A DNA stretch of 64,000 bases, taken from Acidovorax benzenivorans. Lineage in GTDB: Bacteria > Pseudomonadota > Gammaproteobacteria > Burkholderiales > Burkholderiaceae_C. The notes beneath the pieces were generated by a model. That model was not told where the DNA came from and made no database searches. It worked only from the letters and a program-made list of their open reading frames with translations. The DNA is taken from contig NZ_JAPCKI010000009.1 in assembly GCF_028680575.1 (NCBI RefSeq), forward strand, positions 62,001-126,000, in the 5' to 3' direction. The position numbers and the translations under genes are program-made. This document shows positions 3,177 through 34,649 of this stretch, one piece after another; positions within the stretch are counted from its first letter, which is position 1; each line of letters opens with the position of its first letter.

Positions 3177-3541
3177 GGTGGGGCACTCCTGGTCGTTGGC
3201 GGGGTAACCACGGCGGAGTGAAAAGCCAGGCTTCACACCCCTCCGAACGGGGTGCATGCAATCAACCGACAGGGCGCTGGGGCTGCGAGGTGGGGGCTCC
3301 GGCCTCCTGAAGACGCACAGTCCTGCGCGCCCGTGGTGGCGTCAGTCCATTGCATGCTTCAAGAGCAATTTCCGGGCGGTGGCCGCTGAACGCTTCTACT
3401 CTTGGCGTCTGCGTATTTGCAGGATCTGTGCCATGCGATCCCATCGCGTGAGCTGTGCCCAAATGCCCCCGCGTGCCACGCCATGGTGCGCGCTGCACCA
3501 GCGTCAGGCGTGCAGCGGCAACTGTGGTGCGGGGTAGGTCT
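3177..3541. other. Intergenic region between binding-protein gene and otnI
   Basis: 365 bp without a convincing gene. The part nearest the binding-protein gene is its 5' leader and contains a short hairpin near 3234-3253 (CACCCC and GGGGTG arms). The rest shows no clear terminator with a T-run after otnI and no recognisable RNA gene. Confidence 0.5.
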
Positions 3542-32097: not shown

Positions 32098-32937
32098 ATG
32101 AAAAGGATGTCAGTGACGAATTTGCAAATGCTGCTGGACGGTCTGAAGGCCGCGCCAGCCTGTCTGGTGACCGTGGAGTCTACCCAAGGGTCTGTGCCCC
32201 GGGAGCCCGGCGCCTGGATGGCCGTGTTCGCCGACCGGCTGGTGGGCACCATCGGTGGCGGGCATCTGGAGCTGCAGGCCATTGCCGAGGCGCGCCGCCG
32301 CCTGGCGGGTGGGCCGGTAGCGTCCCCCGGCCCCATGCGGTTTGCGCTAGGCCCGGCGCTGGGCCAATGCTGTGGCGGTGTGGTGCACCTGGGGTTTGAA
32401 TGCCTCACGGCCCACGACGCCCCGGCATTGGCCCGGCGCCTCACGCCCCGCCTGCACCCGGTGGCCCTGTTTGGCGGCGGGCATGTGGGCCACGCGCTGG
32501 CCCGCGTGCTGGCGCCCCTGCCCTTTGCGCTGACCTGGATCGACAGCCGGAACGGCATCTTCCCGCCCGACCCGCCCGAGGGCGTGGTCTGCGAACACTC
32601 GGAGCCGGTACAGCTCGCCGTGCCCCGTCTGGCACCCGGCAGCCGTGTGCTGATCATGAGCTTCAGCCATGCCGAGGACCTGGACGTGGTGGCCGCCTGC
32701 CTGCGCCGCCAGCGCGAGCAGGGCGATCTGCCCTTCATCGGGCTCATCGGCAGCAAGACCAAATGGGCCACCTTCAGCAACCGCCTGCATGGGCGCGGGT
32801 TTGTGCCCGAGGAGCTGGCGCAGGTGACCTGCCCCATCGGCATCCCCGGCATTGGGGGCAAGGAGCCCGAGGTGATTGCCGTGGCGGTGGCGGCGCAGTT
32901 GCTGCAAACGCTGCAGGCATTGCCAACCGCCGAATGA
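32098..32937 (+). CDS. xdhC: Xanthine dehydrogenase accessory/maturation protein
   Basis: 279 aa from the ATG at 32098 (MKRMSVTN); the ATG at 32107 and a GTG at 32062 with GAAGG upstream are alternatives. XdhC motifs: ACLVTVESTQGSVPREPGAWM, GTIGGGHLE and, after a linker, the Rossmann-like VALFGGGHVGHAL and FIGLIGSKTKWATF, ending CPIGIPGIGGKEPEVIAVAVAAQLL. It binds and sulfurates the molybdenum cofactor before insertion into XdhB. It sits about 11.8 kb from xdhAB, next to puuD and uraH rather than in the usual xdhABC order. Confidence 0.94.
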   Translation: MKRMSVTNLQMLLDGLKAAPACLVTVESTQGSVPREPGAWMAVFADRLVGTIGGGHLELQAIAEARRRLAGGPVASPGPMRFALGPALGQCCGGVVHLGFECLTAHDAPALARRLTPRLHPVALFGGGHVGHALARVLAPLPFALTWIDSRNGIFPPDPPEGVVCEHSEPVQLAVPRLAPGSRVLIMSFSHAEDLDVVAACLRRQREQGDLPFIGLIGSKTKWATFSNRLHGRGFVPEELAQVTCPIGIPGIGGKEPEVIAVAVAAQLLQTLQALPTAE

Positions 32938-33404
32938 GGGTAATTCCGGCCCCGGATGCCCCAGGTTGGGGCTGGAATCGGGAACAATTCCTGCATACAC
33001 TTTGACGTACCGGTCGCAGCGGTGCCCCGGCCAGAAACCCACTGGCCAAGGTGCGCGACCTTAATGTCTGCTCAGAGCGCCCGCAGTGGTGAGCAGGTTG
33101 CAAGAACGTGTTTGTGATCTCCCAGGGGTCGCGCAGCGGTCTTTGCGGGATGGGATGCAAGGCGCGGTGCGCAGCCAATAGCTCGGCTATTGGCAAGTGC
33201 CGCAACGCCGCAGACCGCCCGCAAAGACCACTGCCCGAAGGGTTGGAGCGAAATCGGGCGATTGAACGCCTCGGCTGCTTGCATGGGCATGAGCCCATGC
33301 GACGCATCCGAGGCATCCACTCATCCCGATTGCGCGCCAACGCGATCCCCTGCAAGATCGCAAACACGTTCAATGTGGCGCGCACGCGCCATCAAGGTTG
33401 AGAT
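32938..33404. other. puuD leader region with structured element
   Basis: 467 bp without a gene. It contains an ATACACTTT half-site (32995-33003) matching the uraH palindrome, a 268-bp multi-arm inverted-repeat element (33104-33371) and a final hairpin TGGCGCG-CA-CGCGCCA (33376-33391) immediately before the puuD Shine-Dalgarno region AAGGTTGAG. Confidence 0.7.
33104..33371. repeat. Structured palindromic element predicted to form a three-way junction
   Basis: Closing stem: 33104-33132 with 33342-33371 (about 29 bp, three mismatches and one extra base). Arm A: 33133-33149 with 33218-33234 (one mismatch), capped by GCCAATAGC-TCG-GCTATTGGC. Arm B: 33243-33258 with 33325-33340 (two mismatches), then GCCTCGG/CCGAGGC, capped by GCATGGGC-ATGA-GCCCATGC. 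The arms abut each other, leaving only 8 nt and 1 nt unpaired at the junction. Could be an RNA structure of the puuD leader or a mobile palindromic element. Confidence 0.75.
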
Positions 33405-34649
33405 ATGGAAAGCTACTTTCTCGACTGGGCCAACCTGCTTTTGCGCTGGGTCCATGTCATTACGGCCATTGCCTGGATCGGCTCGTCGTTCTACTTCGTT
33501 TTTCTGGACAGCAGCCTCACGCCGCCCGAGGACGAAGACCTGAAAAAGCAGGGCGTGAGCGGCGAACTCTGGGCCGTGCACGGCGGCGGGTTTTACCACC
33601 CGGTCAAGTTCGCGGTGTCGCCGCCACAGTTGCCCAAGCACCTGCACTGGTTCTTTTGGGAGAGCTACAGCACCTGGATCAGCGGGTTTGCGCTGTTCAC
33701 CGTGTCGTACCTCTACAGTGCCAGCACTTACCTCATCGACAAGTCGAAGATGGACTGGGCGCCTGCCACCGCCGTCGTGGTGGCGCTGGGCTTCTTCGTG
33801 GTGTTCTGGCTGCTGTACGACGCCATCTGCCGCATCTTCGGCCAGCGCAAGAACGGCGATGCCATCGTGGGCGCGCTGGTGCTGGTGCTGGTGTGCGTGG
33901 CCTCGTGGCTGGCCTGCCACTGGTTTGCGGGCCGCGCGGCCTTCCTGCTGGTGGGGGCGATGATCGCCACATCCATGAGCGCCAATGTTTTCTTCTGGAT
34001 CATCCCCGGCCAGCGCACCGTCATCGGCCAGATCAAGGCCGGCCAACCGGTGGACCCGATCCACGGCAAACGGGGCAAGCAGCGCAGCGTGCACAACACC
34101 TACTTCACGCTGCCCGTGCTGTTTGCCATGCTGAGCAACCACTACAGCTTCACCTGGAGCCACCCGCAAAACTGGCTGGTGCTGATCCTCATGATGTTTG
34201 CGGGCGCCGCCATCCGCCAGTTCTTCGTGATGCGCCACGGCTACAAGCTGGGCCGCAATGGCAACCCACTGCCCTATGCCCTAGTGGGCGTGGCCGTGAT
34301 CGCGGGCGCCATCGTGTGGATGCGCCCCGCGCAGGTGGTCACCCCCGTAGCGAATGCTCCTGTTTCAGGAGCTGCCAGCGCAGATAAAACGGGCGCTAGC
34401 GGCCAAAATGACTTCAAGGCCGTGCAGGCGGTGCTGGAGCAGCGCTGCTACATGTGCCACGGCGAGCAGGTGCAGATGAAGAACCTGCGGCTTGACTCCC
34501 CCGACAGCGTGAAGCAACACGCCCAGGCCATCTACCAGCAGGCCGTGGTGCAAAAGCTCATGCCCATGAACAACGCCACGGGCATTACCGATGCCGAGCG
34601 TGCGCTCATCGGCCGGTGGTTTGAGGCGGGGGCCTCTACGGGGCCTTGA
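33405..34649 (+). CDS. puuD: Membrane urate oxidase (urate hydroxylase) with cytochrome c domain
   Basis: 414 aa. About eight transmembrane segments form the PuuD domain (LRWVHVITAIAWIGSSFYFV; MSANVFFWIIPGQRTV; SVHNTYFTLPVLFAML). A C-terminal cytochrome c domain has the haem motif CYMCH (Cys348, Cys351, His352) and likely axial Met in KLMPMNNAT. It oxidises urate to 5-hydroxyisourate and passes electrons to the respiratory chain instead of making peroxide. The linker, about residues 316-337, is encoded by a copy of the AGCT/GCGC repeat (34351-34414). Next steps are UraH and UraD. Confidence 0.95.
   Translation: MESYFLDWANLLLRWVHVITAIAWIGSSFYFVFLDSSLTPPEDEDLKKQGVSGELWAVHGGGFYHPVKFAVSPPQLPKHLHWFFWESYSTWISGFALFTVSYLYSASTYLIDKSKMDWAPATAVVVALGFFVVFWLLYDAICRIFGQRKNGDAIVGALVLVLVCVASWLACHWFAGRAAFLLVGAMIATSMSANVFFWIIPGQRTVIGQIKAGQPVDPIHGKRGKQRSVHNTYFTLPVLFAMLSNHYSFTWSHPQNWLVLILMMFAGAAIRQFFVMRHGYKLGRNGNPLPYALVGVAVIAGAIVWMRPAQVVTPVANAPVSGAASADKTGASGQNDFKAVQAVLEQRCYMCHGEQVQMKNLRLDSPDSVKQHAQAIYQQAVVQKLMPMNNATGITDAERALIGRWFEAGASTGP
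34351..34414 (+). repeat. AGCT/GCGC dispersed repeat, copy R4, inside puuD
   Basis: GCTCCTG-TTT-CAGGAGC hairpin, then AGCTGCCAGCGC, 10 nt, GCGCTAGCGGCC and AAAATGACTT. It is in frame and encodes the flexible linker (ANAPVSGAASADKTGASGQ) between the membrane domain and the cytochrome domain. Confidence 0.8.

Follow-up and report, generated by a model that had tools for sequence, protein, structure and literature searches.

A mobile palindromic element of MITE type between a conserved candidate leader RNA and the urate oxidase gene puuD in Acidovorax benzenivorans

The DNA analysed here, termed the window, is a stretch of 64,000 nucleotides from Acidovorax benzenivorans, and it contains, between xdhC and the urate oxidase gene puuD, a 268-nt segment that is a mobile palindrome, by kind a MITE, and not an RNA specific to puuD. 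Dispersed copies, empty sites in relatives and IS5-like ends with TNA duplications together identify it as a MITE that lies in the puuD leader. An earlier note on this DNA had offered two readings of 33104–33371, a mobile element or an RNA controlling puuD; the dispersed copies, and the closest relatives of this puuD locus that lack the element, uphold the former and tell against the latter for this segment. The structured puuD RNA that the note envisaged does exist, as the neighbour at 33011–33099 and not as the 268-nt segment. The features of the region are as follows.

33011–33099, plus strand: conserved leader RNA of puuD, distinct from the element; a candidate riboswitch or cis-regulatory RNA of another sort (conservation, covariation, synteny)
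33012–33060, plus strand: leader hairpin 1, P1 GGTCGC/GCGACC with a variable P2 (alignments, covariation)
33068–33096, plus strand: leader hairpin 2, CTGCTCA-GAGCGCCCGCAGTGG-TGAGCAG (alignments, covariation)
33101–33103, plus strand: CAA on the left side, a degenerate target-site duplication (on the right side AAT, 33372–33374)
33104–33371, plus strand: two-armed palindromic mobile element (MITE), 268 bp (folding, copies, empty sites, ends)
33104–33120, plus strand: left terminal inverted repeat GAACGTGTTTGTGATCT, the same end type as the IS at locus L249
33133–33234, plus strand: arm A (RNA fold; helices 2–4 of the element covariation analysis)
33157–33211, plus strand: conserved bulged apex core of arm A, GCAAGGCG...GCAACGCCGC (pattern scans, core alignment)
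33234–33242, plus strand: mini-hairpin CCCGAAGGG between arms A and B (RNA fold)
33242–33341, plus strand: arm B (RNA fold; helices 6–7 of the element covariation analysis)
33355–33371, minus strand: right terminal inverted repeat GAACGTGTTTGCGATCT, minus-strand reading (end comparison among copies)
33375–33392, plus strand: hairpin adjoining the puuD ribosome-binding region (folding; similar in several relatives, by eye)
33405–34649, plus strand: puuD, urate oxidase (Urate_ox_N, E 6.9e-127)

The compact fold that had been proposed for 33104–33371 is confirmed, with a unit of exactly 268 nt. The minimum free energy of the element as RNA is −178.6 kcal/mol, where shuffles average −104.9 (z −15.0); as single-stranded DNA it is −101.1, where they average −55.6 (z −12.8). 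In each case none of 200 shuffles was as low. The RNA fold is closed by a stem in which 33104–33132 pairs with 33342–33371; the stem described in the earlier note is therefore present, at 27 pairs and not 29. The three-way junction described there is right about the two arms, the unit being strictly a four-way junction owing to the tiny CCCGAAGGG hairpin, an arm of only two pairs. The element begins 166 nt after xdhC ends at 32937 and stops 33 nt 5′ of puuD. The further hairpin predicted at the ribosome-binding site is also found, as TGGCGC/GCGCCA (33376–33381 with 33386–33391) folds just before that region. When the whole stretch is folded as RNA, a prediction in which the leader hairpins are partly re-paired, the element forms a closed domain between the leader RNA and the hairpin of the ribosome-binding region. 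As to transposase coding, every open frame of at least 80 aa listed for the element extends beyond its 268 bp.

Copies of the element are widely dispersed. Searched against its own genome, the 268-mer gives 15 matches, the window copy among them; the others comprise two 268-bp palindromes, one of 284 bp and a remainder that is partial or divergent. All 21 genomes drawn from the genus contain matches, from 4 to 41 per genome. Named genomes supplied 80 puuD loci, of which that of Acidovorax facilis (L048) alone carries the whole element before puuD, and a 79-nt partial match is present at L050. As is typical of a MITE, close relatives have empty sites: L045 and L046, whose PuuD proteins are 98% and 97% identical to that of the window, are without the element, as are other relatives. 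In one complete genome (G004), 19 of 20 copies are called intergenic by a simple codon-usage caller, three of them extending 28–56 nt into the predicted end of the adjoining gene, and the remaining copy lies in a weak predicted frame. Among nine open frames taken from one side of such copies, seven have a Pfam match (two below the curated cut-off), and the matches include a transporter, bactofilin, a GMC oxidoreductase, an amidase and an aconitase C-terminal domain. The neighbours are thus unrelated and varied, and not the one constant gene class that accompanies a riboswitch; empty sites and dispersed copies rule out the 268-nt unit as a puuD riboswitch. A search of phages gave no match, and a search of plasmids gave one record, 73% identical, in which the copy is placed between annotated genes. 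Rfam models returned only four matches in the region, all far below gathering score, and none at ten loci with core-bearing palindromes. No description of this repeat, or of the puuD leader RNA, was recognised among the open-licence PMC papers that the literature searches listed.

The ends of the element link it to a group of IS5-family insertion sequences. Full-length copies, selected by the end pattern GARCSTGTTNNNGRTC, have this sequence at the 5′ end and its complement at the 3′ end. The same TNA stands on either side in 7 of 28 full-length rows and not in the other 21; target-site duplications are therefore seen in part of the copies, and the window copy, flanked by CAA and AAT, has no clean duplication. 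The genome G019, from the same genus, contains a decayed 609-bp element with matching ends that holds a C-terminal transposase fragment. With this fragment as query, relatives are found in 11 of 200 family genomes, and seven of 26 fetched loci (three genomes) have a full IS of 843–846 bp with matching ends, whose 3-bp flanks are identical and all TNA; the script that set the borders demanded identical flanks and a G...C boundary, and TNA was not demanded. The IS at L249, in a genome from another genus of the same family, measures 845 bp between TCA flanks, and its ends GAGCCTGTTTACGATCT / GAACGTGTTTACGATCT match the terminal inverted repeats of the MITE. Its 271-aa product is an IS5-family transposase (NF033580, E 1.3e-73, plus DDE_Tnp_1). 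A search for PF13586 transposases in 21 genus genomes returned 30 loci, among which one decayed copy alone has matching ends. The window's own genome contains no relative of the G019-derived fragment at E ≤ 1e-10, so any present activity of the element there is hypothetical. The conserved core of arm A, sought in three IS copies, is absent from all three, and the interior of the element is therefore not a simple deletion of those IS. The IS partner found belongs to the window's end type, the one type for which a partner was sought.

The same ends also occur as solo copies. In G011 these are 16 bp long and nearly all read GAACGTGTTCACGATC; at 24 fetched loci, out of 42 end sites, the same TNA is present on both sides in 15 of 22 (count by eye). 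Across 21 genomes, the exact solo pattern with TNA on both sides is found 18 times in G011, three times in G012 and once each in G000 and G004. Examples of these 16-bp units are seen at L203 and L146–L149. When an empty site was sought for one such copy, its surroundings differed strongly between species. At L145 (G000, contig C38), two inverted end-type sequences flank a pseudouridine synthase stretch, the left one resembling a 40-bp mini-palindrome. This end pair, 1.7 kb apart, was rejected as an autonomous element, the sole scanned frame being the pseudouridine synthase.

The leader of puuD has received such elements repeatedly. L048 and G015 have the element at the same point before puuD as the window does, and their copies are 98.5% and 91.4% identical, respectively, to the window copy. 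Their xdhC and puuD segments are only 85–90% identical to those of the window (85–89% in L048), and the leader just upstream is 79% (L048) or 86% (G015) identical. The flanks are CAA/AAT in the window and L048, and TAA/AAT in G015; because the right flank AAT, which is not TNA, is common to all three, they are read as a single insertion, shared by descent or exchange. Its presence at the same point in L048 and G015 could mean retention for a function. In Paenacidovorax caeni (L080) the two leader hairpins are separated by an independent element, 266 bp long, whose ends are also of this kind, and at L050 a one-armed core element lies directly 5′ of the leader RNA. A short relic that starts with end-like sequence is found between the leader hairpins at L058 and L065, with a variant at L064 (by eye). 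These insertions and relics make the puuD leader a repeated landing place.

The leader RNA itself is a separate and conserved feature. Its pattern is matched at 70 of 80 fetched puuD loci, the unmatched ones being L060 (cut short), L063, L070, L071, L073, L074, L092, L103, L117 and L121, of which L070 was recovered by a model. The model finds the RNA in 143 of 299 family genomes, with a single match in each; puuD is present in 254 of the 299. In all 92 genomes that could be checked, namely those of the 143 with puuD among the matches listed, the RNA lies 18–315 nt 5′ of puuD on the same strand, and puuD adjoins it at 30 of 30 fetched loci. An order-wide draw gave the leader RNA in 6 of 150 genomes, and two matches from another family also precede puuD. 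Two-sided changes are seen at 6 of 19 pairs in an alignment of 50 sequences (of 65 distinct, insertion-bearing or near-duplicate sequences being excluded) and at 7 of 14 pairs in one of 63 sequences fitted to the model; in neither case did any of 500 shuffles have as many. A putative pseudoknot, GCGG/CCGC, is invariant in the 50 sequences. Compared with Rfam, the leader RNA gives nothing at gathering score and nothing meaningful at E up to 1. A conserved, covarying structure fixed 5′ of one gene is what marks a riboswitch candidate, and on sequence grounds the RNA at 33011–33099 is a good one; it is this RNA, beside the element, that probably regulates puuD.

Further observations concern the same region. 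On contig C11 of G240 the leader RNA is 293 nt from puuD, against a median of 46, possibly through another insertion. A palindromic box such as AAGTGTATACACT(T/G), complete or in part, is seen by eye 5′ of the leader RNA at L109, L115 and other puuD loci; the window has a partial box, TGCATACACTTT, at 32992–33003, just 5′ of the leader RNA, perhaps as promoter plus operator. Elsewhere in the window, an NMT1 xanthine riboswitch is found at 3358–3406 on the minus strand (52.9 bits), in the same window as purine-degradation genes.

The element, too, covaries. In an alignment of copies with the window's end type (26 of 28 rows, 25 distinct), two-sided changes are present at 25 of 109 pairs, and the covariation score is 0.190 against 0.091 in shuffles, none of 500 being as high; the arms therefore change together. 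Further pair types show no excess (58 against 58.0 shuffled, 310 of 500 as high). The earlier note had held that copies unlinked to any gene class and without covariation would favour a plain mobile repeat. Unlinked copies are indeed found, whereas covariation is not absent (186 cells with two-sided change against 71.6 shuffled). Since the 268-nt element is unlinked and yet covaries, covariation is here unable to separate the mobile-repeat reading from that of a regulatory RNA.

The element also shares its interior with palindromes that have other ends. The tip of arm A is a bulged hairpin, GCAAGGCG-N-GCAACGCNGC, which recurs in palindromes of the same genome with different ends and, order-wide, in palindromes of about 17 different end types (by eye). 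Of 150 family genomes, 100 contain the exact core pattern, with 906 matches in total and at most 124 per genome, and the reversed pattern, used as a control, gives 0–2 per direction. An order-wide draw gave 285 matches in 52 of 120 genomes, with reversed controls of up to 2 + 2, in one genome that has no real matches. At least five matches per genome, in counts taken from re-typed tables, occur in 39 of 150 family genomes and in 18 of 120 genomes of the order, the latter from 14 families. Single matches may be due to chance, some resembling coding sequence. The bulged AA and AAC are constant across cores, an invariance that is partly built in because the search pattern was exact. The stem of the core is far from constant. 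In 42 aligned cores (of 50 core references), 88.5% of cells are paired against 61.6% in shuffles, 231 cells have a two-sided change against 81.8, and the covariation score is 0.645 against 0.174, with 0 of 500 shuffles as high for each. Up to six standard pair types are seen at a single pair, and a pair is broken in up to 12 of the 42 sequences. Two-sided change of any kind is present at 16 of the 21 pairs, which is no excess over shuffles (15.7, 361 of 500 as high).

The position of the core within the palindromes is also nearly constant in a set of 33 elements with clear ends, chosen out of 77 core-bearing places (59 loci, 17 new ones and the window; end types grouped by eye). In 14 of the 16 two-armed forms the distance from the left end to the start of the core is 52–55 nt, and the other two values are 49 and 56. 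In one-armed forms the core starts at 53–58 nt in 16 of 17 and at 37 in the other, values of 56–58 including a CTAG or TAG tip that is possibly target sequence. Lengths are 264–270 in 13 of 16 two-armed forms (full range 258–279) and 161–167 in 15 of 17 one-armed forms (the other two 145 and 156). Seven of ten two-armed elements that were folded have hairpin loops at 78–80, 131–134 and 185–189 nt; L315 retains just two loops (75 and 183), and L335 and L341 deviate in their second part. L348 has a core in each arm, both times 52 nt from its own end. The simplest summary of this layout is an end, about 53 nt, a core and about 53 nt, repeating. Such a distance is close to five turns of B-DNA and would suit a subterminal site that is in phase with the end, although the length may also be purely inherited.

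Our explanation of these observations runs as follows. The ends of the MITE would be recognised by an IS5-family transposase supplied in trans from another element, which would insert it at TNA sites, mostly between genes. In the window the element landed directly 3′ of the puuD leader RNA, and from this position it should be transcribed as a self-contained hairpin domain ahead of the hairpin of the ribosome-binding region. On the sequences of the chosen set, the window element is one of a group of palindromes found across the order, either one-armed (about 163 bp) or two-armed (about 267 bp). They keep a bulged core approximately 53 nt from their ends, and their stems, the ends included, have been changed compensatorily or exchanged. 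Core and spacing may be kept because a common factor binds the folded or linear form, for movement or for survival, and the ends may be replaceable handles for different transposases, exchanged or re-acquired. We put the probability of this explanation as a whole at about 85%. A broader proposal is tentative, and we would give it somewhat less than even odds: that throughout the Burkholderiales there is a class of mobile folded DNA modules whose structure is what selection acts on, a bulged hairpin core about 53 nt, or nearly five helical turns, from each transposon end, with interchangeable ends and a common factor that reads core and spacing.

Three other explanations have to be weighed against this one. 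The first would have the 268-nt segment act directly on puuD, as a riboswitch or another regulatory RNA. In its favour are a position between a conserved leader RNA and the start of puuD, covariation and the shared site in three genomes; the single whole copy among the 80 puuD loci, at L048, and the copies scattered beside unrelated genes make this reading very improbable. A neutral history deserves more weight, though it too is on the unlikely side. It would derive all of these palindromes from one old MITE ancestor, with arms corrected by template switching, ends acquired through nested insertion, core and spacing merely inherited and no bound factor. Palindromes are known to be corrected by template switching, and the core is common to one-armed and two-armed forms. 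Close neighbours do occur: L360 has two core elements within 930 bp, one of them one-armed and the other two-armed, and their ends differ. This history is harder to reconcile with the contrast between stems, changed at most pairs across many ends and several families, and bulged bases that stay the same, as does the distance from end to core in the chosen set; drift would be expected to alter length as well.

Improbable, if less so than a puuD RNA, is a REP-like mode of movement, in which the core hairpin would be moved as folded ssDNA by a Y1/HUH transposase and would have entered the tips of other palindromes by preference. A conserved bulged hairpin of high copy number would agree with this, and REP elements may be mobilised by TnpAREP (PMC8266576). 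In bounded examples, however, the core lies inside larger palindromes with matching arms, and TNA duplications fit a DDE transposase.

MITEs are usually viewed as shortened copies of one IS and as bound to the ends of that IS. A core, bulges and a spacing that persist while the ends differ would mean that the folded structure is under selection and is read by some factor and, if this is true, a single structural parasite would make use of many transposition systems. A core common to palindromes of differing ends, together with the near-fixed spacing, sets the element apart from an ordinary MITE, possibly in more than these respects. The element is also a warning that covariation and a position in a leader are no proof of a cis-regulatory RNA. 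The leader RNA beside it is a riboswitch candidate that Rfam does not list, found before urate oxidase in roughly half of the sampled family genomes, and is a possible sensor of the urate pathway.

Among known systems, the element is most readily compared with IS5-family MITEs, which are likewise short and non-coding, have IS-type terminal inverted repeats and a small duplication, and are mostly intergenic and of high copy number. It differs from them in its two-armed, cloverleaf-like interior, bulged core, near-constant spacing and many end types. With Correia/NEMIS, ERIC and RUP it shares the character of a mobile palindrome, and NEMIS transcripts with long hairpins may alter mRNA fate via RNase III (PMC2229807). 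Those repeats are found in other hosts and measure about 100–200 bp, and the excerpted text of the same source describes no multi-end group of fixed spacing among them (PMC2229807). The REP/RAYT hairpin element is a palindrome of 20–40 bp tagged GTAG or CGTC (PMC3733652), in contrast to the 268 bp and IS5-type ends found here. The leader RNA, unlike NMT1 in that it gives no match to RF03054 at the thresholds used, is like it in its context of purine-oxidation genes; NMT1 (RF03054) binds xanthine and uric acid (PMC7373994).
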